NCBI GenBank assembly: GCA_021234155.1 | Contig: JAJEKV010000053.1 | Span: 6,277,424 to 6,341,423 of the forward strand | DNA length: 64,000 nucleotides | Direction: 5' to 3' | Source: Isoetes taiwanensis | Lineage: Eukaryota; Streptophyta; Lycopodiopsida; Isoetales; Isoetaceae | In this document: positions 1-57,895 of the stretch, in pieces | Position numbering within the stretch: the first letter of the stretch is position 1 | Layout of the letters: every line of letters starts with the position of its first letter | Translations under genes and position numbers: made by a program | The notes under the pieces: generated by a model | Told to the model about the DNA's origin: nothing | What the model saw: only the letters and a program-made list of their open reading frames with translations | The model's database searches: none

Positions 1-2309
1 GGGGTTACGTATTGCCTGCGGTGAGCTTGCAGGCAGTGGTGCGTGCTCAGAAGAAGCAAAGGCGGCTGGATTGCCCAAAGAAGGAAATGACCATCATCAA
101 TTTGAGGAGATGCAGTGGGTTCACCGGCTACGTAATTACTTAGAACAAGCCTGCAAAAGGTGGTGGATAAGGAGTTCACACTGGAAGAAAATGGAAGGAG
201 CTGGCAGCATAACCATTGCTGCCTTTCACTCTGAATTCTCGTCTGTGATAATGTAAAGAATTTAGTGGTCCTGAACAGCTGTGACCGACATCCAGAGGTA
301 TCTCCTGCACACGCTCTCTCTTAGTATTCTGCATCACACCTTTACTCCTTGAGTCAATGAAAACGATTCTCGAATACACACCTAACTTGTTTGCACAGAG
401 AAGTGTATTCCATCACACTTTCGCTTCTTTTCTTTGAGAAGCAGCAGATTCTCGAATACATCATAACAAGAAAAATATTGATTACAATACTTTGTATTCT
501 AGAATAACTTTAGGTGGCGCGTGAAGATAGTTTACTCATGCTTTTCTTTCCAGAATCGGGCTAAAAGGTTGTGTTTTTCTTTTCTAGCCAAAAAATGTTA
601 TCACCGCTGACATAGTCTCTGATGGAGCAACTCAACGTGGAGACGTGAGGTGCAAGGCTTTTATCCCATAGCTACATCCGACGAGCGAGATAAGCCAAGA
701 CGCATCTAAATTTTAGCGATGGCGGTCACCGACCAAACACGCTATACTTACTTGCCCCGCTCTAATCTCCCTTTGTTTGCGTATCAAGAAGAAAATATGA
801 CCCGCCGTAAGGTTTGGCACCTTTGTCGATCGCACGAAGAAAGAACACCTGGCAGAGGAGAACTTAGATGTGGAGCCTGATTATGAAAAGTTTAATTTAT
901 TTGACTAAAAATAATTTGTTTTCCATCATCATTCACGGATCGACTTAATTTATTAGACAAGAAAGCCACAAGATTTCACACCGTGATTGCGGACCTTCCT
1001 TATGGCTTTAACCAGCGATCACTCACACGACGACTAGCCTTAATAATTGGGGAGTTTAACGCCACGACCAGATCAACAGTCACAACCCGCTAAGATCAAG
1101 GTCGGTCGTGGTTTCACTCGAGTAGCTTAATCCGCCCTCGTGGAGTCCACGCTTAAACTCACTTCGGATCCCCAGTAAGCTGGTTAAGTGAGGAATCGGT
1201 TTTGGTGAGTGTTTTATTCGTTGGGGCCGAGTTTTTGTTTTAGTTTCTATTCCGTATTATAATTGCCTTCACTTGTTCTCGAGCCATTTCTTGTTCCTGC
1301 TTTTCATAGTGACACTCACCATTTCGCTGGTGTGCAAACAAATATAAACTACCATGGCGGGCGGGCCGAGATTGCCGAAAGGCGCTGAATACCCATGTTG
1401 CTTATCGGAGTTTCGTTTGAAAAACGACCATGGAGCATTTTGAACACAAAGAAAGATGCTGCACTTTTCTAATGTGTTGAATTTCCACCGTGTTTGTGTT
1501 ACGTGACCCAGTGCATGGTAGAATTGTTAATCACTACCGTAAGCCCTGTGTGTTGATCAACCATCTCCTAGATATGCTTTTTACCGCCCAGAGATTGGCG
1601 CTTTGATGGCCTGCTCTTGTGGCAATAATAGCTTGTAATTTAGAAGGGCTTAATTGTGTGTGAAGAAAGGATATTGATAAAGGTTGCAGTAATTCATCAA
1701 GATGAGACTGCAGCCTTGGTTTACCCTACCAGATGAGTACTAAGAGTTAGGGGGCCAAATCATCCGATTTTTGCTAAGTCGACTCTTCCGAGATACAGCC
1801 TCCATTCACTAGCTCTTTTTAGAGGATGAAGTTTACTTTTGCGAGTCGAAAGAAGTGGCACTAGCTACCATTCCTGAAGACATCAGATAAGTAGAGATAT
1901 GGGTAAGGCATGTTAAAAGGATCGACCGAATCCACAATCAAGCAAAAAGCATGATGAAGACTTTGATTTGACCTTACCGGCTCCTTTCCAAAAACACACA
2001 TCGACTAATTATGTGATGTTACAATTGTATCATTGAAACACTCTTCATTATATAATAATTATTTTATTCACTACATCTGTGTTTTCAGATAGTACTTTTG
2101 AGAATACAGCATGTCTAATTCCTTCCTTTCTATGTTATTTTGGTAAATTCCGTTATTTTATACACTAGGCCAAAAATGAGGTAAAAAAAATTGCTTCATT
2201 GAATTCTAATTGTAGTGAAAAAGTGTCATTTTCTAGATCAGCTGTTTTTTCTAAGTGAATTTTGAACGGAGGCTGCACACTTGCTGACCTGGTAATCGTG
2301 TTCTCGCTT
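1..2309. other. No gene recognised; unique-looking intergenic DNA
   Basis: The longest open frames are about 60 codons, overlap on opposite strands and have no recognisable motif. Base composition is mixed, with AT-rich stretches near 890-960 and 2030-2200. I saw no tandem repeat, TIR, tRNA or rRNA similarity. Nothing here ties it to the low-complexity block that begins near 2310. Confidence 0.5.
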
Positions 2310-3006
2310 ATTCTATTCCTTTTCTATTTTCTTTATGTTTCCATTTTCCTTTCTCCTTCTCTTCCTTCCTCTTAATTTTCCTTTATTCCTTTCCTTTCTT
2401 TTTCCTTCCTTTCCACTGCTTTTTCCTCCTTTTCCCTTCTCCCTTCCCTTCCCCTTCCTTCCCCCATCGCTTCCTTTCCCTTCCCTCTTCCTTTTCCCCT
2501 TCATCGTTTTTCCCTTCCTTCCTTTTCCCTTCCTTTCCCTTTCATCGTTTTTCCTTTTCCTTCTTTCCTTTTCCCTTTCCCTTTTTCCCTTTCTATATCG
2601 TTTTTCCTTTTTCCCTTCCTTTTCCCTTTTCCCTTCCCTTTTCCCTTTCATCATTTTTCATTTTCCTTCCCCTTCCGCTTCCTTTTCCTTTCATCGCTTT
2701 TTTTTCTCCTTTTTCCTCATCTCCTTTCCTTTTTCCCCTTTCCCTTCCTTCCAGTCGATTTTCCCTTCCGCTTCCTTTTCCTTTCATTTTTTCCTTTTTC
2801 CTTCCCTCTTTCCTTTTTCCCTTTCCCTCTATAGTTTTCCTCTCCTTTTCCTGAATGGTTTTCCCTTCCCTTCTTTGCTTTTCCTTCCCCTTCATCATGC
2901 CTTTCCCTTCCCTTCCCTTCCCTTTTTCCCTTTCCCTTTCCCTTTTCCTTCTCCTTTTCCTTCCTTTTCCTTTTCCTTCCTTTCCTCTTTCCTTTTCCCT
3001 TTCATA
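2310..3006 (+). repeat. Polypyrimidine tract 1
   Basis: About 700 bp composed almost wholly of C and T, built from irregular TTTTCCC / TTCCTT / CCCTTTCC words. TCATCG interruptions (for example CTTTCATCGTTTTTCC) recur several times. Long open frames exist on both strands only because CT/GA repeats avoid stop codons; their products are pure F/P/S/L or K/R/E/G runs and are not proteins. The minus strand has a quadruplex-type G motif at 2905-2922. Confidence 0.9.
2905..2922 (-). other. G-quadruplex-type motif
   Basis: The plus strand reads four CCC runs spaced by TT, so the minus strand is four GGG runs with two-base AA loops. This meets the classical G3+N1-7 quadruplex pattern. Formation is inferred, not shown. 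Confidence 0.6.
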
Positions 3007-3246
3007 TTGAAGTTTGCTAGTCAAGATGAAATTTTATGAAGACACGCACACATCATCTCCACCACATTATCAATCAACCTCGACCGTCCGACGAGGTGCT
3101 ATCCATTACACACACATACTCAGTAATGGTACCCAAATATTGTTGGGCATAAGTTAAACCTGTAGACGAAAATATCTATCTCGGGACCCTTTCATAAATC
3201 CATGAACAGAAACCATGTCCCATTGCCAACAGATGAGTTTTGAGAC
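3007..3246. other. Normal-complexity interruption between two pyrimidine tracts
   Basis: About 240 bp of mixed-sequence DNA with AC-rich stretches. It separates the two pyrimidine tracts and contains no recognisable gene or TIR. Confidence 0.6.
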
Positions 3247-4675
3247 CACACCCTTCCTTCCGCTGTCTTTGCTCCATCCCACGTTTCTTTATTCCCCATC
3301 ATTCTCTTACGCCTTTCTTCTTTTCCCCTTTTTCCTTATTCCCATTTCTTTCCCAGGCCCGCCTCTTTTCCCCCTTCTTTTTAACTCTTTCTCCTTCCAT
3401 TCCTTTCTTTCTTTTCCGCTTTTTTTCCTTTTCCTTTTTTAATGGACTTTTTCCTTCCTTTTCAAATTTTTCCCCTTCTTCCTAATTTTTCTATGTGCCC
3501 TTTTTTTCCTTTTTCCCTTTCCTCTTCCTTTTCATTTTCTTCCTTTTCCTTTCCTTTTCCCATGCCTTTTTGCCTTTTTTCCATATTTTCATGTGCCCTT
3601 TTCTTCCTTTCTCCCAATCTCTCCTCTTTTATCCCATGTTCTCCGCTTACATTTTCTCCCTTTTACCCTTTTTATTTCTTTCCCTCCTCCTCCCTCCATT
3701 CCATTTTCCTTCCTTTTATCCTTTCTTACCCTCTTCCCTTTTTCCTGCGGTTTTTTTCCCATTTCCCGCCTCTTCCTTCTCCCTTTTCTTTTTTTTCCTT
3801 TCCATTTTCCCGCGACCTTTTTTCCATTCCTTTTTTTTCCCACTTTTTTTTTTACGGTCCCATTTCCTCCTTCTTACTCCTCTTCCTTTTCCCTTTTCTC
3901 TTTTCCCTTATCTCTCTTTTTCTTTTTTTTTCTTTTTTCATTTCCATGCTCATTTTCCCTTGCTTTCTTTTCCTTTCCTCACTTTTCTATTCTTCCATTT
4001 TTCTCTCTATGCCTTCCTTCCTCTCCTCCCTTTTCTCGCTACTTTTTCCTTCCTTTTTCCTCCCTTGTCTCCTTTTCCTTTTTCTTGCCTTCCTTTTCAT
4101 CCCTTCCTTTCCATGTGTCATTTTTCCTTCCTTCTTTCCTTCCTTTCCATTTCTATTTCCATTTTTATTTTTAACACCTTCCATCCTTTCCCACCTTTCA
4201 CGGCTCCCTCCTTTCCCACCCTCTTCCCCTTCCATTTTCCATTCCATCTCTCTTTCCTTCCCATGCCCTTTTCCTTTTTTCCCAAATCTCTTTCCTTTTT
4301 CATAAATTTTTCCCATGTTCTTCGCCCTTCTTTCCATTTTCCTCTCTCTGTCAGGTTTTTCCTTCCCTTCGCCTCCTTTGCTTTTTCCTTTCCCTTTTAT
4401 TCCCCATGTCTTTTCTTCATCTCCACCATTTGTTTTTCCCTTTTCCCTTCCCTTTTCCTCCTTTCCTCACCCTTCACCTTTTTTCGTTGTCTTTCCTTCC
4501 TTCCTCCTCCCCTTTCTTTTACCTATTTTATCCTTCCCATACCATTTTCCCTTTCCTCACTCTTTTCCTCCCTTTTTCCCATAAACATTTTCCTTCCTTC
4601 CCCTTCCCCCTTCCCCTTCCTGCGGCCTTTATCCTTCCATTTTCCCCTGATCCTCCTCCTTCTTCCTTCTTCTTC
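3247..4675 (+). repeat. Polypyrimidine tract 2
   Basis: About 1.4 kb of nearly continuous C/T sequence with the same word content as tract 1, interrupted mainly by short CATG or CCATG words (for example TTTCCATGCCCTTTTCC) and single A or G bases. It ends abruptly at TTCTTCAAGATC. Long frames through it are composition artefacts. Confidence 0.9.
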
Positions 4676-4939
4676 AAGATCAAAGCTGCGACCATTCCAC
4701 AGCAGGAAATGCGGGCGATAAACTTTGACTGGCGTAACCTGATGATCTAAAACCATCCAAATTCAGGGTTTCATTCATGATACTTACGCTTATAACATTA
4801 TAATCTTATATTATAAAAGTTTTAGAAGCGATAGTTCAAATCAAACCCTAATTTAGATAGTTAGACGCCCGATTGCATTTGAAGGCCGAGATTTATCGTG
4901 ACAACTTCCCACCACCATGATTGGCTGCGCTCGATCTCT
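4676..4939. other. Spacer between pyrimidine and purine tracts
   Basis: About 265 bp of ordinary sequence with an AT-rich middle (4790-4860). It lies at the switch point where purine/pyrimidine strand bias reverses. No gene, TIR or repeat was seen. Confidence 0.6.
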
Positions 4940-6298
4940 TAAGAGGAAAGCGGAAAATGGCGTAGCGCAAAAGTGAGAGGCAAAAAGGCACGGGCAAAAA
5001 AGGGAAAGACTGAAGGAAAAGGAAAGGGAAAAAGAGTACCTAAAAGGGAAAGAAAAGAAAGGGAGAAAAGAAGGAAAAAAGACACTATGAAAAGGAAAAA
5101 GGGGGAAAGGAGACTTGAGAAGGAAAAGGAAAGGGAAAAGAGCACCAAAAGGAAAGAAAAGAAAGGGAGAAAGGAAGGAAAAAGATTATGAAAAGGAAAA
5201 AGGGTGAGGACAAATAAGGAAAGAAAAGGGAAAGGAGGAAAAGGAAGAAAAAAAGGGGCAACGTAAAAAAATGGAATGGAAAAAAGTGTGAAAATGGAAA
5301 GGAAAAAAGAGAAGGAAAAAAAGGGTGGAAAAGAAAGAGGAAAAGGGGTATGGAAAAAGAGAAAAGGATGAAAAAAAGAAGGAAAAGGAAAAGGAAATGG
5401 AGGCTAAAAGGGAAAGTGGGGAAAGAAAAAAGAACACTGGAATAAGGAGGGAAAATGGAAAAGAGGAAGGAAAAAGGGCAACTAAAAACCTGAAGAGGGA
5501 AAGGTGAGGAAAGGGTAAAAATAAAGGGAAAAAGAGCATGAGGAAAGGGAAAAGAAAAAAAGAAAAAAGGGGAATAGGACGGGAAAAGGGGAAAGGGTAA
5601 GGAAAGGCGAAGAAAAGGCAAGTAAAAAAGTGAAAAAAAGGGAATGGAAAAAAATACATGGGAAAAAAGGGAAAAGGAAAAAGGGAAAGGAAAGGGAAAG
5701 GGAAAGGGAAAGGGAAAGGAAAGGGAAAGGAAAAGGAAAGGGAAAAGAGAAAAGGAAAGGGGAAGGAAAGAGGAAAAGGCACCTGAAAAAAATGGAAAGG
5801 GTGGGGAAAATGATGAAAAAAAGAAGGAAAAGGAAAAGTAAAAAGGAGGCGGAAAGGGGGGGAAGGAAAGGAAAAAAGGCATGAGAAAAAAAGAAAGAAG
5901 AAAATGGGAAAAAAAAGAGACATGAGATAAAGAAGAAGAGGGTGAGGGAGAGGAAGAAAACATAAAAAAAGGCGGGAAAAGGGAATGCAAAACGGCATGA
6001 GAAAGTTTGGAAGGGAAAAGAGAAAAGCAAAAGGAATGGGAAAAGGAAAGGGAAAAAAGATTATGAGAAAATGGGAAGGGTGGAGAAAGGTGAAAAGGGA
6101 AGGAAAAACCGCAAAAAAGGGGAAAGGGAAAGGAAAAAAATGAGAAGGAGAAAAGGAAGAAAAGAGGAGGGAGAAGAGGGTAAAAAAAAAGAGAGAGGGA
6201 GAAAAGTAAAATGTGCAGGAAAATAAGAAAAGGGAAAAAAAGAAAGTGTGTAAGAAAAATGAGGAAAAAGGATATGCGTGATAGAGCAAAAGGGAAGA
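4940..6298 (+). repeat. Polypurine tract, opposite strand bias to the preceding tracts
   Basis: About 1.35 kb made almost entirely of A and G: GGAAAAGG, AAAGGGAAA and AAAATGAGGAAAA words with scattered ATG, GCA and GTG interruptions. Its reverse complement has the same vocabulary as the preceding pyrimidine tracts, so the block resembles two arms of a very large imperfect inverted repeat with a 265-bp spacer. Encoded K/E/R/G runs are not proteins. Confidence 0.9.
5694..5714 (+). other. G-quadruplex motif (GGGAAA repeats)
   Basis: Four GGG runs separated by AAA occur in unbroken register, flanked by further GGAAA and GGGAAA words. This is a textbook G3N3 quadruplex pattern inside the purine tract. 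Folding is inferred. Confidence 0.65.
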
Positions 6299-7984
6299 TT
6301 TATCAAATGCACAAAAACCTTATAGCCTAGCAATGATGGACTTGGTTTCTATTATATTAGATGTATAAAAATGAGTCCGAAATTCAATAGGTTTTCCACC
6401 ATTAAATGCTCTTAACATTTACCCAAAGAACGCCGGGCAACCATTACTAGTATAAGATAAGATGTTGCATGGTCACTTTTGGCATTGGCAATTTGTAGAA
6501 ATTTGGCATTTTGGGACATTTGCTAACAGCTCAAGCCTATTTTCTTATTTTGACGCTTATGTTACCGAGATGAACAATAGTAGTGCCAAAGAAACACGAG
6601 TAGTGGGATTATTTACTGTGTCGAGCATTCATCTTCAACTTCATCTTCTTCGGCCCTTCGTGGAAGGTACAGAAAAAGAGCTAGAAATAACCCCGTTGAA
6701 GCTTCCATATCGCCATCGCGGAAAGTTGTTGGTGCAATAAGTGTCGGGAGTTGCCACGCTCTTTATCATGTGCGATAAACAACACGCATAACTATATGGT
6801 ATGTGGGGCTTAAATAGGCCCCAACAAAAGTTTATCGGTAGGAATGCCAACGGAACAACGGTAAGAAAATGAGGTATGCTACATATATACCCCTCTAGGC
6901 ATTTAAACTAATTAGTTGACATGTGCATTTAGTTATTTTAAATGTTTGAATATGTACAATCATTATGTCGTGAACAAATAGTGGATGCCTATTTTTACAC
7001 ATATGACTAACCTAACGTCAGAAAGGTTAACACAATTCAACCACAAACTTCTAATGAGGAGCATACTCGTTTGCGCTATAGAGTGTGTTGAATTGCTTTT
7101 ATGTACATTTTAATATCTTATTTATTGTGTTGTTATTCCAATTGTATAATGTAATAGAAATTGTACAATGTGATGGATTTATATTTGTATAATGCATATG
7201 GTGTTCATATAATTGTTTCATAATATATCAAGTGTATGATCTTTAAATTACCACCTAACATAAAATAGCAACCGACATCTATATGTTCAGTCCCTCGTGA
7301 TGAATCATTGGATGAAGTTCAAACATCAAGTTCAAAGAATACTTTGTTTTGTGCGATGCTGGATACATGAAAACACCACAAATTATTTTCCAGCAGTTCA
7401 ACACCCTCGAAATGAGAACAATGGTGACAAGGTTGAATTCTACACAACGAGGCAACAACCCCATTGTTTCCAAATGCACGGTATCTCGCCTTTGCTGCGA
7501 TGTTTGTTAATTTTGAACCTCCCAACATAAAGCCGGCTGGAGCAACAATAGTGTTTCGAAGTTTTTCGTGTATGTACATATGCTCTTATAGATTTTTGTT
7601 TTTACAATGTTGCTACTAACAATATTAAAATATGAGACATGTACTCTAGTTTGCTAGACAAAATACTACCGTAAGGGCATTGCCTTCCAAAGTCAAGAAG
7701 AGAGGCAAGAGAATTGTTAAGCAGCATTAGGCTAGAATACACCAGTATACATGCATGCTGAATGATTGCATACTATTGATAGAACGCATTGGCGCGGGAA
7801 CCAATCATGCCCGAAGTGAAATGAGCCACTGTGATGAGGAAGGAAGAAGGTCAAAAGTGGCAAGGAAAACATTGGCGCCCATATGCCTATAATCCCCCCC
7901 TTTTACGCTATATGTTTCGATCTCCTTCCATTGCCTTTTATGGATTACCATGCAAAAATCAGAGCATAGATGGAAAATGAGGAT
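6299..7984. other. No clear gene; AT-rich DNA upstream of CACTA transposase 1
   Basis: AT-rich sequence. Short open frames near 6462-6740 and 7297-7530 show no recognisable motif. The part after about 7270 may hold upstream exons or leader of the CACTA transposase that becomes recognisable at about 7990, but no domain supports this. Confidence 0.4.
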
Positions 7985-10639: not shown

Positions 10640-11095
10640 AAATCATGTACACTATTGGGGATCGCCGACGCCCAACGACGCCGCTAAGGTTGCCGATGAA
10701 CGACGATCGCCGCCGTTGATCGACGCATATCGCTGCTCAACGACGACGACAACGCCGCTTCGACGCCGCTCAACGACGGCCATCGTGGTCGACGTGAGCC
10801 CGGATTTGCCTTCGCTATGGTATGGGTACCGGCCGCAGCAGGCTCAAGGTGGTCAAACACGCGGGCTAAACGCCGCTCAACGACGCTTCACGAGTTTCCG
10901 ACGCCATTACGCGTGGAAATGGGCAGCTTGTTGCCGGCAAACAAAGTGGTCAAGATCGCCGCCAGCCGCGGCCGCCGTTGAACGACGTTGTATCAACGCC
11001 GACGCGGTCACGCCCGTCAAGGTGGCATGGTGCTGGTGCTGTCACCGCCATGCGGTGTGACATCGCCAGCCTTTAAACGCCGTTAAACGACGTGG
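10640..11095. repeat. ACGACG-type subterminal repeat cluster 1
   Basis: A GC-rich block packed with CGCCG(C/T)T(C/A)AACGACG words, including near-palindromic CGTTGAACGACG. It directly follows transposase 1. The same vocabulary recurs at 11.70, 18.36, 56.46, 57.20, 62.71 and 63.46 kb. By analogy with CACTA biology these are transposase-binding subterminal repeats. No TIR could be found at its outer edge. The open frame across it is a composition artefact. Confidence 0.7.
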
Positions 11096-19538: not shown

Positions 19539-22036
19539 TAACCCGCCGCCCGATTCGGCCTAATGCTAACCTTTGACCTAGACTTTCTCCAAAAATTCAA
19601 AAATTGGGCCGTAGGCCGAGATGAATTAGGATCCGGCAAAAAATCAGAATTTATTTTCGCAGGCAATGCATTAATTGCGAATTTTTTCATGTGTTGCCAT
19701 CGAAAAGATGACTTCTAATCGCCATTATCGAGGAGGACAGTCCAAACTCCGCTCCGATTTATGCGCTTCTCGCCGCAGCCGCCAATGCCTAATTGCAATG
19801 ACCAGGACTCGTTTCAAAACGTAAAACCTTCTAGAGCCCGCAACTCGGGCCGTGGTTTACGCCGCTTTCTGAGGCCCTCTCCTGTCGATTCGCCGACCTT
19901 TCCAGACGCATGGTCTTTGAAGTGGAGTTGGGGGTGTTGACGGAGGAGGACCTAAAATCTCCTCCCGAGGTCGCTGCCCAAATTTCTCTCCCTAAGGCCC
20001 TCGGGAAGAACCTCCCCCTCCATCATCTGTAATGGACTCTATTTCGGGAACTCCGCGGGCCAAGCCACTCCTCGCCCCCAAAGTAGAAACCTTGACTCCA
20101 TCAACACTCGCCGAATCGTCTAGGACATTGCGATAACCAAGTTGGACGTGCTTAAGAGCAAAAAACGTAACTTTGCTCATTTCAAAATGAACCTCCTTCT
20201 AGAGCCCGGCAACAAGGCCGATGTGGTTTGCGATTCGGAGGCCCGCGCCGTAAGATTCGCCGACTTTCGCCGCCAGCCATGTCTTGAAGTTTTTGGGGTG
20301 TTGACGCCCCGAGTCCTAACACTAAAATCCTCCTAAGCCGCTTTGCCTCGTCCTCTCCCAAGGCCCCCGGGGAAGGATCCGCAACCTCCCTCTAACCGAA
20401 CCTTTTGATTTGCTCGCCAATGGACGTAATCGGAGATGAATTGATCGGGATTAAGTTCCTCAGGCTTAAGAAGGATCGCCCCCAAAACGTAAAACCCTTC
20501 TGAAGCCCGGCAAACTCCGGCCTGGCTTCTTGCGTGATTTGAGGCTTTTTCTTTGTCAGATTCAAATGTAGGCCGACCTTTGCGCCCGGGTCTTGAAGTG
20601 GAGTTGGGGGTGTTGACGTGAGCCGGACCCTAAAATCTCCCGAGGTCGCTTTTGCTTAAATTTCCTCTCCCTCAAGGCCCCCGATGGACGGGCCACCTCC
20701 CTCCGAACAAGGGACCGACTCGCCAATGGACTCAGAACGCCGACATTGCCCTGGGGACCAAGTTCCGCGGGCCGTAAGACCACCAACTCCAAGAAGCGCC
20801 AAAGTAGCTCACTTCCATCACACTCAGAGTCAATTGGCCTAGGATGTGCATGGATACCGGCTGTGGAGGGCGGAGTGTTTTTCTTTTTCAAAACCGACCG
20901 CGGTAACTTGCTCCCTAGGGTAATTTCGCCATTCCCGACGATTTGGTGGTCTATTTGCCATTCCCGAGCATCCCTGCGTCCGAAACGACAAAAATGCTAT
21001 GGTTTCTACAAGGCCGACATCGATGCCCCGCGGTTTGACAAGTTCTCCCGGACCGATCTGAATCTTTTTGACCTTCCCAAGAGGGGCCCCTGAACGGAGG
21101 ATCCAACTGGCCGGATAGGGGAACCGCCCGGGAGGGTGGTCATTAGCGCGGTACCGGGAGCCGCCAGAAGGGTCGCCTTCGAACTTTTTTTGATCCCGCC
21201 CCCCGGGTCCGGACTCTCCTCTTGTGAGGGATCCCCGCAAGGTCCTGGCCTCGTTTGACTTGGGAAGGGTGCCACTCGGTTGTTCCCGCAACGGCTGCCC
21301 CGACCGTTCTAATGCTAACCCTTTGACCTAGACCTTCTCCGAAAATTCAAAATTGGGCCGTGCCGAGATGAATTAGGGATCCCACGACGGCAAAAAACCG
21401 GAATTTATTTTCGCAATGCATTAATTGCGTAATTTACGAATGTCTTGCCATCGGCAAAGCCCCGACTTCTACTTGCCACATCGGGAGGAGGGAAAGGCCC
21501 AAACTCCGCCCGCCGGGCCTCTTGTTCGTATTCTGGCGCCGCTTCTGGCCAGGTCCCAAGTGCAATTTGTAGACCAGACTCGGCCCCAAAAACGCAAAAC
21601 CCTTCTAGAGCCCGGCAACCCACGTGGTTTACGCCGCGGGAGGCCCTCTCCTTGTCGATTCTACGGACTTGGCGCCGCGGTCTTGAAGTGGAGTTGGGGT
21701 GTTGACGCCGACTAAGGTGGACCCTAAAATCCCTCCTGAGGTCGCTTGCCCCAAATTTCTCTCCCCAAGGCCCCGGGGACGGACGGGCGACCTCCCTCTC
21801 CTCCCCGGGGACCGACTGACTCGCCAATGGACTCGAACGCCGACATTGCCTCGGGGACCAAGTTCCGCGGGCCGTAAGACCACCCAACTCCAAGAAGCCA
21901 AAGTAGCTCACTTCCATCACACTCGTAGTCAATTGGCCTAGGATGTGCATGCGGGATACTGTCGTGGAGGGCGTGAGTGTTTCCTTCTTTCGCAAAACCG
22001 ACCGTGTAACTTGCTCCCTAGGGTAATTTCGCCATT
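19539..22036 (+). repeat. Left part of the 1.1-kb satellite: degenerate and truncated units
   Basis: Satellite blocks recur in the same order as in the main array but are diverged and shortened. A first unit starts with TAATGCTAACCTTTGACC at 19,561 and breaks off near 20,145. A second partial runs about 20,158-20,430. A third resumes at AACGTAAAACCCTTC (about 20,475) and runs through to 21,308. A fourth (21,309-22,036) is close to consensus and is cut at the TAATTTCGCCATT block by the inserted transposon. Rising similarity toward the array interior is typical of satellite edges. No conserved reading frame is present. Confidence 0.88.
22033..22036 (+). other. Target-site duplication, left copy (CATT)
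   Basis: The satellite consensus reads TTTCGCCATTCCTGACG without interruption. Here CATT is followed by foreign sequence, and CATT recurs at 31,588-31,591 where the monomer resumes with CCTGACG. This is a 4-bp duplication of the target. Confidence 0.8.
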
Positions 22037-22111
22037 AACAACGTCTTAAATTAAACGCACTTATTTTAAAAGTGCATTTAAAAGATTCCTTAGAAAAAAC
22101 TGAATGAAGTC
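22037..22111 (+). repeat. Left terminal inverted repeat
   Basis: It begins AACAACGTCTTAAATTAAAC. Comparison with the complement of 31,515-31,587 shows AACARCGT, AAATT, GCACT(T/A)ATTTT, a TGCA(T/C)TT core and AAGATTCC in the same order, with a few small gaps. Confidence 0.82.
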
Positions 22112-22844
22112 AGAAAAAGGCTCTTTTTTTCAAGACTTTAAATTGTTAATGCATGGCAGTATAAATTTGAGCACGTTTTAGCCTATTTTAATCATTGCAC
22201 GAAATTATTGATGAATAGAAGCTTAAAATTATGCATTTTTAGTATGCTTTTTCTATCTACATGATCACTCCAATAAAGAACATCTTACGACGTAGCAACT
22301 TTTACAAGAATTTCGTTAATGCATGAAGTTGCTAAAGAAAAATAGCATTGACAAAGGATCTTAAAGCGCATTCATCTCTATTAAAACTTCATTTGTAGAT
22401 TTACAAGCATGCAATCGAATTATTCTTCTTTAAGATTACTTAATTTGTTCACTTATAACCAAATAATCGAAGTGCTAGTCTCTTTCAAATAGTTTTTTAG
22501 GATTAAATGGTTGTTCTTGTCCCTTTTTTTTTAAAGAGTAGGATTCAAACAATAACCAATAAAAATTATCAATTTTAAGCTTCTACTAGTTGAAAGATGA
22601 CTGACAAAAAACATAAGGTTTAAAAATTATTCAACTAAAAGCACAAGACAATTCTTAAAACAAAAAGATCATAAGCATAATACTAAAGGAAAAAAACAAT
22701 CACAAAATAAATGACAAATTAATTCACAACAATAGTTCTTAAACTTCATATCTCAAGCAAATGACAAAATAGTAAAACGACTACCAAAGAAATAGAAATT
22801 TATAAGTTCTTAAACTTCGTGTCTCAAGCAAATATTAAACTACT
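22112..22844. other. AT-rich subterminal region of the transposon
   Basis: AT-rich, with no gene. A 30-bp segment around CTTAAACTTC(A/G)T(A/G)TCTCAAGCAAAT is present twice (about 22,739-22,764 and 22,809-22,835). This may include the 3' UTR of the minus-strand gene. Confidence 0.5.
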
Positions 22845-23139
22845 TCAGTAATCAATGGGTTCTTCTTCATCGGGGTTCCATTCTTTCTTTCTCCTCTTCA
22901 AGACCAATGTTTACTAAAGGAATTGTTGATGAAGCCTTAGGAGTTTCTTCAGAATTACAAAGAGCGTGATCAAGCTCGCAAAATCAACTCGCCATCGCCT
23001 ACCACTAGGTGGTGGCTGAATTTCGTGAGAAAGTTTCGCTAGATTTCCAATCAAGCTTTTGTCGCCTAACTCCCCGATTTTCATCAGGCAAGGACTCACA
23101 AGAACTTATTCTTGTTTTATAAAACTAACATTATCCGGA

Positions 23140-23835
23140 TCAATATCAATGGAGATAACATTTCTTCCTTTCTTAAGAGCACAAACCGCAGCTTGTCCCC
23201 GATCCAAAATGCATCCAAAGACCAACCACCGGTCTTGAAAACCAACTAATAAGCTTTAGAAATTAACTTCGGGCTTTTGATAATGTGACACTATTTGTCC
23301 CTCCTCTCGAGGATCTTTCAACTTTGAAGCATGTACCGGATAACAAAACACGTTGTTTGGTGGTTGAGTTTCATCCGCTGTGTTGTAATGCCGCATACCC
23401 CTTTACCATCAACACTATAATATCCAATATGGAGATGCTCAAACTTACTAACTAGACGAAGCTCCACCACCATTGCCTTTAACATTTGTTTTTATCCCGC
23501 AAGAACTTGAAATCGTAAACGTGAACCGTGATATTTCAAAATGAAGAAAAGTTTAAACTTACCACACACAACCCTCAAAACCAAAGATTGCATATTGTAG
23601 ACAATGGCTTTATCACGTATATTGTTTGAACATCCGAATGAAATAAAATTATTTCTCCAATAGGAGGAGGTGGTGACCTCTTTAAATCCTTCCGTAAATG
23701 ACTCCACCTCCTTCCAAGTAAAAGCCTTGTCATCAAAGCGATCGGCCCTTTTATCTTGAAGCCATAAGGTATATCAGCTATGCACAATGTGAAGTTACGT
23801 GGTTGAATAACTTGTTTCAAGAACCCAGCCTCCAA
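23140..23835 (-). other. Amino-methyltransferase catalytic region (motifs IV and I)
   Basis: The frame starting at 23,835 gives NFTLCIADIPYGF, matching the (D/N)PPY-type catalytic loop with the variant DIPY. About 180 codons later, switching between frames, come a FxGSGQAAVCALKKG-type glycine loop and a GRNVISIDIDP stretch, where the acidic residue after ISI would bind AdoMet ribose. The intervening SDVQTIYVI and FFILKYHGSRL segments fit beta strands of the core. The C-terminal glycine loop is characteristic of PF01555-type enzymes. Confidence 0.65.
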
Positions 23836-24660
23836 CTACGACTTTATATAATGCATCTTGATTGAAAAGATAGAAACTCTCAAGATCATTAGTCAAAAAC
23901 CTAGAGCGGCTTGACCTTCCTCGCTTGTGCTTTAAGCTTTTGCCTTTCTTCTTTACACCTTCTTACAAGGTTTAAAAATCCAAAGCAGTAATCCACTAGA
24001 CTTTTCTACGTAAAGAAGTTATTCTTTAATACTTAAATTGATATATTATGAAGTTCAAAAAAAAACATTGTAGTATAGAACTTATCTATGAAATTTGAAG
24101 TACTAACCCATTTGTCGGGTTAGGGGCATATTCTTTTATCAAAGCATCCGTGGTTGTCGGGCCGATAATTTGCTCTCATAGCCTTCCCAAGCATCCAGAT
24201 TAAGTGCTTTCAAAGAGCTCTAACCGGCAAGTTACAATATCTTTTTGTCTGTATGTAACAATAAAATATTTTAGAACATCTCTACCGATTAATCACAAAA
24301 ACAAACACCTTATCGCTTTGTTTCATTTGCCATTTCTTCTAAAGTAAACTCCTTAGCCACACGACTCTCTCAGAGAAGATGGACTAGTAGCTCTTTGTCC
24401 TTAATTCCTTGAAGAGAAATCCAAGGAACAATAGTCATCTCCTTCACCTTAGCAGGTTTAGATAATTTCTTGCTTGCCTTAGGCGCTTTTTCCACTACAG
24501 ATTTTGTCTTTAGCTGGTTGTCTTGAAACATGGAAAAAAAATTTTCTTGAAGTTCCCATATCTGAAAAAGCAAACTATTAGTGCCAGAAGTTGCCATTTG
24601 TTTAACTACAATAAGAAAACACTGGATGGCAACATCCACAAAACTATGCACTTATTTCTA

Positions 24661-24992
24661 AGATTTTATGACAAGTAACGTAACTAAGTGCACGCAGTAT
24701 GAATTCATACACTAGTTTTTTAACACAAGCAATAAACATGCCAACTTCAGTTTTGAATGCATACCTTTTGTAAGATTTTTTGACAAGTAAGTACTGTAAA
24801 TGAGTGCACGCAGTATGAATTCATACACTAGCTTTTTAACACAAGCAATAAACATGCCAACTTGAGTTTAAATGCGCACCTTTTGTAAGATTTTTGACAA
24901 CTAGTACTATAAATGAGTGCACGCAGTATGAATTCATACTAGCTTTTAAACACAAACACTAAACATGCCATCTTGAGTTTAGATGCAGACCT
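24661..24992 (+). repeat. Three tandem copies of a ~115-bp unit
   Basis: Copies start at AGATTTT (24,661), 24,773 and 24,888. Each holds AGTGCACGCAGTATGAATTC, then TTAACACAAGCAATAAACATG and CTTTTGTAAG. Each contains the perfect palindrome GTATGAATTCATAC (24,697-24,710; 24,813-24,826; 24,926-24,939). They lie within the minus-strand gene between its ParB-like and middle regions, so they are probably intronic. Confidence 0.88.
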
Positions 24993-25194
24993 TTCCACTT
25001 CTGAAGGCTAGTTGAAAATAGTTGTCAAACTTTTAAAGCACCCGGTGGGTGATGATCACTATCATACCGAGGCAACATTCGCTACACAAGTTTCCCCGAG
25101 CTCAAGGAGTGTACCATTCTTTCTAAAGTCTTCACCGTGAGGTCTGCTCAAAGTTTATAAATTCTCGATGCATAAAGCGATCCGATCAATGAAA

Positions 25195-25575
25195 CTCATT
25201 TGAGGCGTGACTCATTATCAACATTATGAGAAATGGCTAGAACTTTTGCTTCTTCATCCGTTAGACCAACATAAACCTTAGCTTCTACCACTTTCCAAGC
25301 GGTGATTTTTGTCGCCTTCTTTCATTAGTTCCTTTCTTGCTTTGTAACCGCGGTGTTCCACCCAAGACATAATACCGATAGTACTCAAAGTCAGCCTTAT
25401 TGTACTCTTTTTAGAGATGTACATTGATTTGGGTCAACCATAACAATCATAGGAGTGACTATCGCTTCTTGGTTAGCCCTCATTCTATCTTTTAGAATGT
25501 CAACGCAGAGGCATATAACTTCCTAACTTGCAGAGGCCTTTGCCCGTAAGCCGCCTTTGGGAGGTCTTTGATTGT
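25195..25575 (-). other. ParB/sulfiredoxin-like region
   Basis: Minus-strand codons give TPMIVMVDPNQC (entry strand of the fold), then LGGTPRLQ-type residues where ParB proteins have the GxHR box, then VYVGLTDEEAKVLAISHNVDNESRLK. The ...LTDEEA..LA..HN... stretch resembles the Arg/His helix region of ParB-like proteins. Frame shifts occur at about 25,310 and 25,410. The fold is inferred from motif order only. Confidence 0.5.
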
Positions 25576-26002
25576 AGCTGTAGAGAGCCTCATCAGATCA
25601 ACAACACGCTTGGTTGCATTGACATAATTCAACAAACTTTGTGCTCCTATCAACTTCCTTACTTTTAATCACACATCCAGAGCTCTTTTTTCTCCTTGGG
25701 CACTTCGATCCCTCAATGCGCTTGTACCTTCCTCTTCCTTTGCACAACAATTTCTTTGACATGTTTTTTTTGTTTTTAAGCAAGTCCTTATCCAAAGGTT
25801 TCTATCTAATTCTCCACCATCATCTCCGCCCTCTTCCTCTTGACCGCTTGCTTCTTCGCCTTCTTCCCCACTCAATTGTTCTTTCTCCACTTTTCACTCC
25901 TCTCGATTCATCATCTGGGTAGACTTTACCTACCTTAAGTATCACCGCTGAATTACAAGCTTTAACATTTTGGAGGACATCAATAATATCCTCGTTGCAC
26001 AA

Positions 26003-27230
26003 AGTTATCGGGCTTGAACATTAAAGTAAACAAACTAAATTGACAAGATTTTACAAAAGTTTTAACACCGCACGGATGTACTCCTTCAAATCAGCAGAAA
26101 ACACAATGACATCTTCATGAAAACACTATTTAAAACAATTACGCCTCTTTACCGCTTAATTATCCAAATACCACTTGGTTTGCGTAATCATTCCTCTTAA
26201 TCGAAAAATTCTTCCGTGGACATAAAAGTCATCCTTCTTTAAAGTTTCTCTCGCCAGAGATGGTCGTTGTCCAAAGAAATAAGTCGTATGGATGCTTGTC
26301 TTGAAATCCTCTAGAAAGAAACCATCGGTGATTTAACATTTTGTATCCTTTCAAATTTTCTCCGTATGATTTTAAACTTCATTTTAGGCGCTTTTATCGC
26401 ACAACAAAGCTTTTGTTATGCAAACTAATTTTGCGTAAGATATTTGATTCAACAAAACCAGCCAAGTGTTAAAATCAATCATCAAGTCCTTTTGCCGAAA
26501 AAAATGTGGAAAAGCTACTAAAAGTGCAAAGAAAACCGGGCCGATTTCATCACTTTTTCATAATTTCCTTGTTGTTCAGACGCCAAAATATCTACTCTTA
26601 TTAAGTACAAAGATGTGCCAAATTAACAGTGAATTGGCTTATTCTACTACCGATTTTGCTATTTCTACAACAGATTTTTATGATTCTACAGCCGATTTTT
26701 CAACTTCTCATCTGATTTTTCAATTGTTCAGTCCGTTGTCGATTTCCTGGAAAATATTGCTGATGTTTGTAATCTAGTCTACAGCTGCAAAAGAACGGCC
26801 AATTTTGATTGTTTTAATTACGCTTTTGGAGATTTTGCTGTTCTACATGAAGTCTGGCACAGAACAATTTTTAAGTTGCAAAATCGATTTCTTTGTCGCT
26901 TCGGATTTCTTTTTCAAAAAAATCGATTTCTCGCTGCACGTTTCGTTTCTAACGCCGATTCGCTGCTTTTAACCTGGCGCTTGAAATCGAATCCTCGCTT
27001 TAACCGGGCCGATTTGGCCTGCTGCCGATTCGGCCGATTCTCACGAGGACGCTTGATTCTCGGCCGTTGTTGGTTTCCTTTAACGCCTGGCCTTAAACCA
27101 AGAGTTTAATTGCAAGGAAAAGGGACGGTTGTTGTTGCACAACGTCCAACATGTTAGGAAATTTAAAAAGATAGAATGTTTTTAGCAATTGAGATGTTAT
27201 TTTAAGGATGGCACTTTGAGAAAGAAAAGG
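26003..27230. other. Central part of the transposon: no clear gene
   Basis: A 103-codon plus-strand frame at 26,466-26,777 contains repeated YSTTDFAISTTDFYDSTADF-like wording, which comes from a DNA-level repeat of (C/A)CCGATTTT(T/G) (26,650-27,010) and is probably not a protein. The divergent promoters of the two genes should lie between about 26.0 and 28.9 kb. Confidence 0.4.
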
Positions 27231-27234
27231 AACC

Positions 27235-27952
27235 GTATGAATTCATACCATACAACATTTTGCCTTCTAATCTAAGACAGAGAAACTTCTAGAAATGCAC
27301 TTTTTGGGATTAATTAATCCCGCTTTTACTCTCTCTCTTGGAAAGAGACTCAGATGAATTTATACCGGGCCATCTACGCCTTAAGGGTGTCAATGCCTTA
27401 AAGTTGTGAGCAGAATATTCAATAACACATGATGGTATAAATTAATACCACCACTAAGATAAATTCATACCACAAACTTATTCTTGAAAACCTCAAAGGT
27501 ACAAGTATAAATTTAAAAAGGAATATTCTGAAGAAAAAATGAAAAACGCAAAGAACATTAAGAGTAAATAGGTCGGCGCGACGTGGCTCACTCCGGTCAT
27601 GTCCCAGATATCGGCTTTTTATAGGTCCACTTCTATGGTGAAGAAGACTATTCAATGAGATGCCGTTTTGGTGAAATTTTATGATGTAAGAAATGAGAGA
27701 GAGTTAAAGTATTTTGGTATGTTTTTTCATCTCGATTTTAATTGTGCATTGCCATAGAGTTGCGTGATACGGGAAGTTGTTTACAATTGTTGAAATTGCT
27801 ATTTGTATTTGGGATTGGTATGAATTCATACCGCTTTGCTCTACTTAACCCTTCTAGGATCAGGGTTTGAGTGTAGCATTGGTATAAATTTATACCGCCG
27901 CTTGTACTTGTTCGTCGGGCCTAAAACAAAGGATCTGGTAGAAATTCAAACC
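27235..27952. repeat. Cluster of GGTATGAATTCATACC-type palindromes
   Basis: Palindromic or near-palindromic words occur at 27,235-27,248 (GTATGAATTCATAC), 27,353-27,366 (GATGAATTTATACC), 27,434-27,449 (GGTATAAATTAATACC), 27,459-27,472 (GATAAATTCATACC), 27,817-27,832 (GGTATGAATTCATACC), 27,881-27,896 (GGTATAAATTTATACC) and 27,937-27,952 (GGTAGAAATTCAAACC). They are unevenly spaced in otherwise different sequence and share their core with the three copies at 24.7-24.9 kb. They may be binding sites for an element-encoded dimeric protein. Confidence 0.75.
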
Positions 27953-27992
27953 AATGCTTTTTAAGGAGATGGAGACATCACATTCTACTAGA

Positions 27993-28325
27993 TTTCCACC
28001 TCCAATGCGGTGTCACCCCCTCCACAAAATTGCACATTCCACCTCCAATGCAGATAACACTGATACACACAACCGCCAAAATTCCGCCTCCCATGCAAAT
28101 CACTCCTGCATAATAGCTTTTGTTACCCTCAATGGAATTCACTCCACCACGTTGTATTAAAATTCCACCCCCATGCAATTTACTCCGTGACGAGACAATT
28201 TTTGCTTGTAAAGGCACACTTGACAAAACAAAGTATTCCAAGCAATTCTTCTTTGCCACTTCTACCGCTTTGGCACACTACATCGATGCAATGTCTTTTT
28301 TGCCACCACCAATGCAAGTTACTCC
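27993..28325 (+). repeat. Spaced CCACCTCCAATGCA-type motif, five copies
   Basis: Copies are at 27,993 (TTTCCACCTCCAATGCGG), 28,036 (ATTCCACCTCCAATGCAG), 28,081 (ATTCCGCCTCCCATGCAAAT), 28,162 (ATTCCACCCCCATGCAATTT) and 28,301 (TGCCACCACCAATGCAAGTT). Three are followed by (C/T)ACTCC. They sit between the palindrome cluster and the transposase gene. A regulatory or binding-site role is inferred from repetition only. Confidence 0.65.
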
Positions 28326-28985
28326 AGACAATCCAACATGAATCCACCCCCCTCAGATTCCACTCGATTGATACAATTGACATCTTAGAATCCCTTGAGA
28401 AGGAACCCTCAAAATGAAGCAGATGTTGCCACAAATTCCTTTTGTAATCCTAGTCGGGCCGAGCAACGCCATCCTTTAATGGCTTTCCAGTGTGCTTCAG
28501 ACTTTCGAGTCCTTCCAAGGTCGCTTTTTCCGAGGGTGGACGCCTCAACAAGGTAATCAACCTACACAATTTGAAGTACCGTAGCGGGGCCATTTCAGAT
28601 GAAGATGATTTAGAAGAGGATTCGTAACATCGTGGCAAACCGCTTGAATTCAAAGAACCTAGGAGCAACAACTTTAAGAGAAATCAGACAAAAGGTTTAC
28701 TCACTACCTGAGACGCCACGACTCATGGATGAGGCAAACTTAAGGAAGTCGCGACATCCAACATTGTTGTAAGAATAATTGTATTTCAAAGATAAGTTTG
28801 AGAGAGTTGAGGTTACTACGCGGATCACTATAAAGGTAAATGACTTTTAAGGACCAAAGAGGTTATCCGCATACAATATAAGGCCCGACAGAGGAGACAA
28901 GTTTTTTTATTATCAGAAGGAATTGAAGTTTGTCGACAAAGATTCAAAAATCATCCATTGTTTAGGAAGGTGAGACTAACAAGGT
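28326..28985 (+). other. Presumed upstream region or first exons of the transposase gene
   Basis: No motif is recognised. The region includes short Ser-rich minus-strand frames and plus-strand segments with basic coding potential (ETRLTRLKKRLDKNPL near 28,970-29,010) that run into the transposase gene. Confidence 0.35.
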
Positions 28986-30960
28986 TGAAAAAAAGGCTCG
29001 ATAAGAATCCACTAATTAATGATTACCGCCAATCCGAAATGTTGTGACTACTCATGCTCTAGAATGTGTAGCTTGATGGAAAACTTCTTCAAAGAATCTT
29101 GTGAAAAGTTGCCCAATAGTCCAATGTACCATTTGAATGATAATTTCACAAAACGTGAAGTCTACAACAACTACAAAGAAACATGCCTAGAATCCGTGTG
29201 CGCCAAGTTTCTTATTCACATTTCACGCTTTTGTGGAAGAAAGAATTCGCCGTGTAAGGATTCCAAGAAAGCATCAGATGTCGGGCTTGTCCACACATAC
29301 CGAAGTTGAAGGCTAAGAGGCAAAGTGCAAAAACTTTACATGTTAAAAGTAAGATAACAAGAATCCTTTTTATTTTTGTATTCTCCTAGAAGTTTGTCCG
29401 ACAACTATTTTATGTGTAGATGCACTCAAGGAGCAACTTAATAAATAATGTGGAGCGGATACAATTGTTAGAAAGAAGAAAATTGTCCAAGCACGTAAAA
29501 AGTCGCTAGAGAAGCCCCTTCAAGATCTTCAGCTTGTAATAGATGGCATGGATCAAAAGAAAACGACGATACTTCACTTTGTGAATGTGCCTAAGGATCT
29601 TCCAGAGCAAGACTTCATTCACCTACATGTTGTTGGCGCTAATGATTTTTTTCTCGTAAGCTTCGTTGTAAAGCTTTTCTCAATTATCCAAATCTTCAAA
29701 GTTGATCCAAATCTTGTAGTTACAATTTTGCACAAGATTCTTTGTAGCTTGAAAATTTACCGCCAAGTGTTATACCTTCAACCGACAACACTACAAGAGA
29801 AAATAAAATCAAGTGGTCTTTGCTTATTGTGCCATGTTGGTCGAGAAACAAATCTTTAAGAAAGTAAAGATTGGTTTTCTACTAGTTGGGCACACGCATC
29901 CACCAAATTGATCGATGTTCAGCAGATTCTCCAAACGCCTTGCTAGAAAAAGGCGTTTACTTTGCCAACAATGGTTGAAGTTATCAAAGATTCTTATAAT
30001 CCCTCAACCGTAAGTTGAGCTAATCGAGGAGACTTTTGATTTTAGAGAGTTTGTATTTCGCAAAGATGGAGATGGTTGTGCTATTGAGCCGTTAAGGAAC
30101 ATCACATTTCAGCACCATGCAAAGTTCTTCTTACAAAATAGCAAGACCTTATTACAAGGGAAGAAATATGCTACATCACGAGAATGGTTACCAAAGGATG
30201 GTCTACGCTTATTCGCTATATTCCCGATCCTAATACTATGATGTTGGCAAGAGCAAATGCCCCTCAAGAATCTATTTGAGATAACCAAGAGTCACAAGGA
30301 AAAAAGAGCATTTGATCCAAAAAAATCCTTAGATGCATTTGAAAGAAGTATTAAGCTTTGTTATAATCACTTTGATGAAGCAGCTTGTTTGTGGTGGAGT
30401 TCTTTCTTTAGTAAGCAAGGCAACCTTTCCAAAAGATGGCACTAGGGCCAACAACAATTGCATTCCAAGTGGGCCGTGAGAAAAGATCTCATATGCTTGC
30501 AACCGATGATGTAGCAATAGACTAAGTTGAACAAGTTCTCACCAGACGAGGAAGGTCGTGGTAATCGCATACTGTGCCCCTAGAAGAACAAAGACAACAA
30601 GAAGCTAGAGTATCTGGAAATACTTCAGAAATACAAAAGGGAATGCTAGTTGCTGTTTTGGCAGATGATGATGAGGAAGGCCGAATGTTTTGGTTGGCAA
30701 AAGTCCTTGATGTTGTTCGCGAGGAGGGATTACCCACACAATTAAAGGTGCATTGGATGAGAACTACATCAAAAAATGCATTTGATGGACTGTGATGACT
30801 TTGAGATGTTGAACTAATAGAGGCAAAAAGAGCAAGAAGCACAAAGAAGAACGGATATGCTTCATCTCTCAGAAGTAAAAATCCTTGCATATGACTTTAC
30901 CCTGAAAGCCAACAACAGACTGCGCGAGACTACTAAAAAGCTACTAAAATCTGCTTGTGG
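28985..30960 (+). pseudogene. DDE-like transposase (DGMDQ/GHTH family) with C-terminal SH3/Tudor-like segment
   Basis: Plus-strand pieces across three frames give, in order: a segment ending WKKEFAV then RIPRKHQMS (about 29,215-29,280); KPLQDLQLVIDGMDQKKTTILHF with D at about 29,542; HLHVVGA; NLVVTILHKIL; LYLQ followed by DNTTRENK (29,784-29,807); FAYCAMLVEKQIFKKVKIGFLLVGHTH (GHTH at 29,888-29,899) and an ID pair (29,907-29,912). The DGMDQxKT / DNxxRENKN / GHTHxxID pattern is that of an abundant, poorly named eukaryotic transposon protein family (DUF7869-like); these acidic residues would form the metal site. Downstream come EWLPKDGLRLF and HFDEAACLWWSSFF, then KGMLVAVLADDDEE with FWLAKVLDV and LKVHWM (30,640-30,760), like an SH3/Tudor/BAH barrel. 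It ends with ILAYDFTLKANNRLR. Broken by frameshifts. Confidence 0.7.
30574..30795 (+). other. SH3/Tudor-like segment at the transposase C-terminus
   Basis: One clean 73-codon frame: GMLVAVLADDDEE, RMFWLAKVLDVV and LKVHWMRT. Alternating hydrophobic strands with FW(L/I)(A/G)KV and KVHW are typical of small chromatin-reader-like barrels. In the context of the upstream transposase motifs it is best read as that protein's C-terminal domain, perhaps steering insertion to modified chromatin. The ligand is unknown. Confidence 0.5.
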
Positions 30961-31514
30961 TCTAGGTGAGTCGTCAAAAAATGTTGACAATGTTGTCGAT
31001 GAGAAGATGACATTTTACTAGTGGATGCTGATGAGGAGGACCGCTCCAAAGACATCCACCTCCTCGATAGCGAGGCACTAGACACAAACAAAGGATAATA
31101 CCGACCACCTGTCAACTAACCGATGATGAGATAGATCCCGTGACTAGCAAAGAAAGTCAAATTATGTTAGATAACGCTTATTTTCAAGATATAGTTTATT
31201 CTTGATAATTGCAAAGTCGCATACATTTCATAATTAATATGTTTTGTGTAATCTTGTAGTGTCTCTTATAAATTTCTATTTAAAACTACTTTGTGCCACA
31301 CATCTTTACTTATAGATTTGAGATATTTTCATTTTACTACCATTAGAGTTAGGGTGCTTTTTATTTTTTTGTTCCATATTTAGTTTTACAATTTAGGTTA
31401 GGAACAAAAAAATATGCCTTCAAGTTTTTACACAAACCCAAAATAGGGTAAAAAATTTGTAAAATGTCTAAATTATCAATATTACCACAAAAAATAGCAA
31501 GAAATTTCTTGTTT
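30961..31514. other. AT-rich 3' region of the transposon
   Basis: Past about 31,140 the sequence is AT-rich and frame-free, consistent with a 3' UTR and subterminal region. No repeat was seen other than the TIR that follows. Confidence 0.5.
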
Positions 31515-31587
31515 TCGTGGGGAATCTTTGAATATTCCTTTGAAGTGCATTTCATCAAAATTAGTGCATTCAATTTTGAACGCTGTT
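31515..31587 (-). repeat. Right terminal inverted repeat
   Basis: Reverse complement begins AACAGCGTTCAAAATTGAAT and aligns with the left TIR: AACARCGT, AAATT, GCACTAATTTT, AAATGCACTT and AAAGATTCC. It carries a short insertion relative to the left copy (GGAATATTCA region). The plus strand ends ...GAACGCTGTT at 31,587. Confidence 0.82.
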
Positions 31588-31591
31588 CATT
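31588..31591 (+). other. Target-site duplication, right copy (CATT)
   Basis: CATT precedes CCTGACGATTTGG, where the interrupted satellite monomer resumes in phase. It matches 22,033-22,036. Confidence 0.8.
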
Positions 31592-57744: not shown

Positions 57745-57776
57745 TCTTCTTCTTCTTCTTCTTCTTCTTCTTCTTC
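57745..57776 (+). repeat. TTC microsatellite
   Basis: About ten TTC/CTT units in a longer TC-rich stretch. Confidence 0.85.
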
Positions 57777-57799
57777 CTCTTCTATTTTTTTTCCATGGA

Positions 57800-57895
57800 A
57801 GAAGGACGTCGTTGAAAGACGAGGCCCATTCTTCCTCTATTTTTTATTACAAGAAGGGGACGTCGTTGAAAGACGAGGCCCCTTCTTTTTATGTT
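57800..57895 (+). repeat. Two direct copies of a ~50-bp GACGTCGTTGAAAGACGAGGCCC unit
   Basis: GAAG(A/G)(A/G)GACGTCGTTGAAAG followed by ACGAGGCCC(A/C)TTCTT occurs at about 57,800 and 57,855. It is related to the ACGACG subterminal vocabulary but carries GAAAGACG in place of GAACGACG. Confidence 0.75.

Follow-up and report, generated by a model that had tools for sequence, protein, structure and literature searches.

A decayed two-gene transposon of Isoetes taiwanensis joins a DUF7869 transposase to a ParB-like/methyltransferase gene and to arrays of a candidate target palindrome

The stretch of DNA analyzed here (the window) comprises 64,000 nucleotides of the Isoetes taiwanensis genome (contig JAJEKV010000053.1, positions 6,277,424 to 6,341,423). 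It holds a DNA transposon with two genes in head-to-head arrangement: a plus-strand transposase with a DUF7869 domain, and a minus-strand gene that couples a ParB-like part to an amino-methyltransferase with the motif order of the beta class. Arrays of a palindrome lie in one of the second gene's introns and between the genes (Table 1). The ends, the insertion site and the relatives described below show that the window copy is a decayed member of a two-gene cut-and-paste family of plant DNA transposons, in which the transposase faces the ParB-like/methyltransferase gene.

The element is bounded to the nucleotide. It interrupts a satellite that breaks at 22036/22037 and picks up again at 31588, and in all 22 other satellite copies that reach the insertion point the matches to the left and right flanks share exactly 4 bp, which shows that insertion duplicated CATT. 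The inverted repeats are about 31 bp long and imperfect, and the element is 92.7% identical over its whole length to another locus of the same genome, L036. The transposase gene is decayed: a read-through piece matches PF25273 (DUF7869) at E = 1.9e-30, the read-through aligns with named proteins, for example P0003, along 92% of its length, and positions 29807-30418 match P0001 in tblastn at E = 7.4e-49. Among the best 120 of 250 protein relatives, the closest named ones are from Riccia (a liverwort) and Adiantum (a fern), with animals lower. The GC-rich satellite itself occupies about 19900-22036 and 31588-55600, and its copies are mostly 85-93% identical over the compared parts.

Table 1. Features of the element and of its insertion site, in window coordinates.
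Feature	Position	Strand	Remark
Complete DNA transposon, 9,551 bp	22037..31587		in satellite array of ~1.1-kb period
Target-site duplication CATT, left	22033..22036
Target-site duplication CATT, right	31588..31591
Terminal inverted repeat, left, AACAACGTCTTAAATTAAACGCACTTATTTT	22037..22067	+	identical in L035 and L036
Terminal inverted repeat, right, AACAGCGTTCAAAATTGAATGCACTAATTTT	31557..31587	-	inward reading
Methyltransferase exon with motifs X, I, II	23106..23582	-	bounds approximate
GRNVISIDIDP (motif II)	23136-23168	-
Methyltransferase exon with motif IV	23600..24006	-	bounds approximate; protein matches of relatives
ADIPYG (motif IV)	23761-23778	-
Linker exon (KEMTIVPWISLQGIKDKELLVHLL...)	24313..24564	-	tblastn with L035 protein, E = 2.3e-32
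Three palindromes AGTATGAATTCATAC(A/T) and a weaker site at 24750	24696..24940		intron behind ParB-like exon
ParB-like exon	24988..25578	-	frameshifts and stops; bounds from protein matches
VYVGLTDEEAKVLAISHN piece	25223-25276	-
GGTPR piece	25348-25362	-
Palindrome cluster, seven sites	27234..27952		region between the two genes
Decayed transposase with DUF7869 domain	28844..31000	+	bounds approximate

The methyltransferase in the window is real. Its motif pieces stand in different frames among numerous stops, so this copy is broken; the element is now incapable of making either of its proteins. A frameshift-tolerant profile of eight phage and plasmid methyltransferases, which was run over both strands of the 64 kb and avoids a free choice of frames, scores 41.7 bits at 23109 on the minus strand, against 18.0 bits for the runner-up anywhere in the window, and this gap establishes the methyltransferase. 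The exon at 23106..23582 contains motif X as HYQKPE, motif I as SRPGGWSLDAF..GSGT, spanning two frameshifts, and motif II, and is matched by the protein of relative L048 at E = 2.3e-27 (tblastn); 25175-25570 of the ParB-like exon is matched by the protein of L035 at E = 1.6e-36. Pfam searches of single frames of the gene, with X at stops, gave no match, and a read-through reached N6_N4_Mtase (PF01555) at E = 1.2e-4 and 22.5 bits, under the 26.7-bit cut-off. Protein database searches with the broken methyltransferase returned nothing at E <= 0.001, PDB matches of its read-through were not significant (best E = 0.13), and scans of viral contigs found no relative. The best matches to phage and plasmid methyltransferases (E = 3e-3 and 2e-3, respectively) back the family and do not give its origin. 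A fragment of a second copy of the methyltransferase family lies on the plus strand, with IADLPYG at 974-1036 (E = 0.08 for this motif IV piece) and a further piece at 1394-1570 (tblastn E = 4.6e-5 with the L035 protein).

Less damaged relatives in the same genome (1.66 Gb, 1,110 contigs) give the architecture that the window copy has lost. A first-look search with the transposase domain turned up 9,903 candidates; 150 of them were scored, every one a match, and our sample is the 20 best-scoring hits, each taken with 10 kb upstream and, for 14 loci, also with 5 kb downstream. A ParB-like part and a methyltransferase lie on the strand opposite the transposase in 13 of these 20 neighborhoods, a ParB-like piece alone in one and neither in six. 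Eleven of the 14 two-sided relatives could be bounded, every one with identical 4-bp duplications. Many copies are damaged, and three (L035, L041 and L048) keep open frames across the ParB-like/methyltransferase exons, in which motifs IV, X and I follow one another as expected; motif II is present in L041 and L048, and the L035 frame is without it. Such open frames again have the ParB-like part first, followed by motif IV, motif X (YQKPE), motif I and motif II, and L048 reads CIADIPYG, HYQKPQ, DWILDAFSGSGTT and VSVDIDP in succession, with L041 alike (D-x-P-Y and FxGxGT motifs). Once spliced, the L048 methyltransferase scores 59.9 bits against PF01555, and N6_N4_Mtase reaches E = 4.5e-16 on the spliced methyltransferase exons of one same-genome copy.

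A first-pass annotation, made from the letters alone, had proposed such a beta-order amino-methyltransferase on a plant mobile element, and the relatives bear it out in both motif order and selection on the protein. The four motif pieces it cited lie where it placed them, on the minus strand within 22845-26002, and the open exons of the relatives, in which the order is kept, rule out that these pieces are intronic or out of order. ADIPYG does precede GRNVISIDIDP; the GGT box, which the annotation had put behind VYVGL, instead precedes it in the direction of the gene. Its GGTxR box is present in the window as GGTPR, but the relatives read GGTHS (own genome) or GGSHS (the fern-like elements described below), so the R is the product of a shifted frame. 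As for the Pfam matches it had suggested looking for, N6_N4_Mtase is above the cut-off in relatives and below it in the window read-through, and the ParB family PF02195 was matched in neither. Its further suggestion, a putative marking of the transposon's own DNA by the enzyme, is a hypothesis taken up below.

Comparison of open frames points to purifying selection on the methyltransferase gene. Ratios of nonsynonymous to synonymous substitution (dN/dS) were computed by the Nei-Gojobori method for pairs with dS of 0.05-1.2; the pairs are not independent. The ParB-like exon has a median dN/dS of 0.085 (21 of 27 pairs, maximum 0.68), the motif IV exon one of 0.089 (17 of 24 pairs, maximum 0.42), the motif X-I exon one of 0.05 (14 of 16 pairs, maximum 0.14) and a transposase exon one of 0.27 (5 of 6 pairs, maximum 0.30). 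Such low medians suggest selection on the protein.

A second lineage carries the same pairing. A scan of genome contigs with the transposase gave ten loci, eight of which are contigs of a single metagenome-assembled genome (MAG) labelled Trichormus (L017-L024). Five of the eight have the ParB-like/methyltransferase gene on the opposite strand, and the remaining three are only 3.7-4.2 kb long. The pieces of the window gene match these five at E = 1e-22 to 8e-26 (ParB-like part), 4e-8 to 5e-10 (linker) and 2e-4 to 2e-15 (methyltransferase, of which two contigs contain just the beginning), and the spliced exons of L019 score 57.9 bits against N6_N4_Mtase (cut-off 26.7). Three of these elements have both inverted repeats (~34 bp, starting AACA as in the window); a matching 4-bp duplication flanks one of them and is missing from the other two. 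Trichormus is a symbiont of Azolla. Because of this, and because the genes are split and the named relatives among the listed transposase matches are eukaryotic, we infer that the contigs come from the Azolla host and were binned with its symbiont, and refer to them as fern-like. The ParB-like exons of the two lineages are about 42% identical. The other two loci, L025 in a Shimia MAG and L026 in an actinobacterium MAG, have weaker matches to the DUF7869 transposase (25-26% identity) and are possibly eukaryotic contamination too.

We find the best clue to function in the palindrome arrays, which the first-pass annotation does not mention. The seven sites of the window cluster between the genes have at least 13 of 16 matches to GGTATRAATTYATACC. 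The window has 11 sites of this kind inside the element (four in the intron) and none in its remainder; 100 block-shuffled controls of the element averaged 0.22 sites, with a largest value of 2. The 11 bounded relatives contain 276 sites in 100,661 bp of element and none in 64,339 bp of flanks. Among the 20 upstream loci, 18 have sites (387 in total), none of which overlaps the 28,446 bp of BLAST-supported coding sequence, and these include all 13 loci with both protein parts and the locus with the ParB-like piece alone. The sites are located in introns of the ParB-like/methyltransferase gene and near its two ends, and also in the region shared with the transposase promoter.

The arrays differ between lineages. 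Over 176 sites of seven loci the palindrome carries 1.70 bits per column and the spacers 0.15, and the low spacer figure means that these sites are not simple copies of a longer unit; the corresponding values for L035 and L036 (19 sites) are 1.67 and 0.41, and the three intron palindromes of the window at 24696..24940 belong to three 116-bp tandem units, with one palindrome per unit. Sites are commonly 21, 28-32 or 41-42 bp apart, which is at most suggestive of helical phasing, as 10.5 bp did not stand out in the spacing test. GAATTC is the most frequent core in the window, L035 and L036, and AAATTT in the remaining loci with sites. The GGTATRAATTYATACC palindrome was not found in the fern-like elements. 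They have another, unrelated one, GTCGATRC-N3-GYATCGAC, with 32 sites in six of the eight loci and none in the window or in the 20 own-genome loci. These sites occupy the intergenic region in L018, L019, L022 and L023, with a usual distance of ~51 bp from one to the next in L018 and L023. The contigs L017 and L021 are not long enough for the partner gene to be seen, and L020 and L024 are without such sites.

A methyltransferase under apparent selection, a putative DNA-binding part and lineage-specific arrays in introns and promoter are together the basis on which we consider it somewhat probable that the family has a sequence-specific system of self-recognition and self-marking, working through putative palindrome recognition and predicted methylation. 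The ParB-like/methyltransferase protein would recognize the palindrome arrays of its own element and act there, with N6-adenine or N4-cytosine methylation, within the sites or in the surrounding DNA, as the probable reaction. Recognition would recruit the protein to copies of the element and so mark them, and the mark may protect the activity of the shared promoter from host silencing, as the VANC protein does for VANDAL elements by another chemistry: the methyltransferase would write a mark instead of removing 5-methylcytosine. We suggest only tentatively the fuller version, a three-part land-plant system in which the protein writes a counter-mark of N6-methyladenine (6mA) or N4-methylcytosine (4mC) on its own fast-evolving, parS-like arrays, with one sequence per lineage, and the transposase sits under the same promoter, so that copies are kept active. 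This would be a writer-type counterpart of VANC demethylation.

Several observations weigh against self-recognition, beginning with the ParB-like part. The first-pass annotation had paired ParB with an amino-methyltransferase; the ParB-like part is indeed there, and whether it contains a true ParB domain is borderline. PF02195 is unmatched in the exons of the window, of the own-genome relatives and of the fern-like elements, though on control phage proteins the same family missed two of eight ParB regions (L007 and L012), and three of its six matches were below the curated cut-off. An hhalign comparison with ParB domains gave a probability of 2.8%, E = 0.016 and a score of 18.98, and one of 60 column shuffles scored higher (19.23). 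The AlphaFold model of a fern-like ParB-like exon is poor (predicted local distance difference test score, pLDDT, 46) and unfit for structure search. Beyond the ParB-like part, the dN/dS pairs are non-independent and from open frames only, with some ParB-like pairs up to 0.68, and choosing sites by their similarity to the palindrome inflates conservation inside it. Finally, four of the six loci without either protein part still have arrays (L039, L046, L051 and L052; L037 and L050 have none).

Other comparisons leave ParB homology weakly supported. The hhalign controls (reversed, and methyltransferase) scored 8.3-9.9 against the 18.98 of the ParB-like part, and the alignment pairs GG(T/S)HSxxARxxL with GHxRxxAAxxL of ParB. 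A ParB profile scores 17.0 at the expected place in the window, a value insignificant alone since 17.7 elsewhere ranks above it. The ParB read-through searched against phages gave nothing, and a PDB search with the ParB-like part gave no significant match; sulfiredoxin, seventh of eight rows, aligned over the GG(T/S)HS part at E = 1.5.

Since arrays occur where no ParB-methyltransferase gene was detected, they could be bound by the transposase or by a host factor instead. The main rival to self-recognition, which we regard as rather doubtful, is accordingly that the arrays serve to bind the transposase, or else a host transcription factor driving the shared promoter, and that the methyltransferase does a separate job, for instance the timing of transposition relative to replication, a role that Dam methylation has in Tn10. 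In line with this explanation, some of the sites stand immediately upstream of the transposase gene, but arrays are also inside introns of the ParB-methyltransferase gene, and in the bounded elements the nearest site is ~457 bp from an element end. The four loci with arrays and no ParB-methyltransferase match in the 10 kb fetched are possibly deletion derivatives.

It is unlikely that the enzyme alters host DNA, RNA or protein, such as a host silencing factor, and not the transposon. Family membership alone does not give the substrate, but members of N6_N4_Mtase are as a rule DNA enzymes, and the link to sequence-specific arrays points to the element itself. That the gene is a captured bacterial passenger without function in the element, as a dead window copy and many damaged ones might suggest, is very improbable and is rejected by the median dN/dS of 0.05-0.09; motifs IV, X, I and II are also intact in L041 and L048, and the gene was retained in both lineages at the divergence given above. 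Bacterial or phage contamination of the assembly is hardly credible despite the bacterial-style domains, as the satellite insertion with its 4-bp duplication and the exon-split genes rule it out and four LEAFY-domain (SAM_LFY) matches in the genome, against none in 14 control genomes, indicate a plant.

Self-recognition and self-marking by such a transposon would have precedents. The accessible portion of PMC12477816 describes Sola1-1_Ec32, a ParB-methyltransferase transposon of the brown alga Ectocarpus (a 21.5-kb element with a 1104-aa protein), in which a ParB-like part and an N4C/N6A methyltransferase are likewise in one protein on the strand opposite a DNA-transposon transposase. It already proposes binding and modification of the transposon by its own protein, and credits similar ParB-methyltransferases on green and red algal transposons to Iyer, Abhiman and Aravind 2011 and Petroll et al. 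2025. The likeness to our element is one of description, between a brown alga and a plant, and palindrome arrays go without mention in that portion of PMC12477816. Thus ParB-like/methyltransferase genes on algal transposons and the idea of self-marking were already known, and what appears to be new here is the land-plant palindrome arrays: our literature search, mostly of titles and abstract openings with few subscription papers covered, found no description of land-plant members or of palindrome arrays of such elements. Sola elements have a 4-bp target-site duplication. In this our elements are Sola-like (CATT in the window, 11 of 11 bounded relatives, one of three two-ended fern-like elements); the likeness is in duplication length, and the transposase matches DUF7869. 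Among bacterial and phage proteins, L003 (Acidithiobacillus phage AcaML1) and L012 (Gordonia phage Arri, with a PF01555 match) also have a ParB-like part ahead of an amino-methyltransferase with motif order IV, X, I, but the plant protein is very distant from them in sequence.

The closest working parallel is VANC. VANDAL elements are of MULE type, with a MULE transposase and a 9-bp duplication, unlike the DUF7869 transposase and 4-bp duplication here. In Arabidopsis, VANC, a sequence-specific factor that the transposon itself encodes, removes DNA methylation from VANDAL elements via target motifs that form arrays in the VANC and VANB introns and upstream of VANA and vary between related elements, as far as the available text of PMC5735166 goes. 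Our arrays are similarly placed, partly within the accessory gene's introns and partly ahead of the transposase gene, and similarly differ between related elements. That same text attributes loss of DNA methylation to VANC, does not term it a methyltransferase, and has no word starting 'palindrom'. The question of self-marking bears on whether 6mA or 4mC is made deliberately in land plants and on how transposons escape silencing. The enzyme gene concerned stands beside 13 of 20 sampled transposase genes, appears to be under purifying selection and has candidate target sites differing between two lineages. Should the mark be present at the palindromes of intact copies, the transposons would have an anti-silencing system whose chemistry is not that of VANC.

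Two further features of the window lie outside the element. Positions 2001-6300 hold a long C/T-rich stretch (GC skew -0.66 in 2001-4000) followed by an A/G-rich one from about 5000, with imperfect inverted pairing between the two. Words around CGTCGTT / AACGACG recur in repeats at 10735-10885, 57774-57887, 62708-62790 and 63074-63176.

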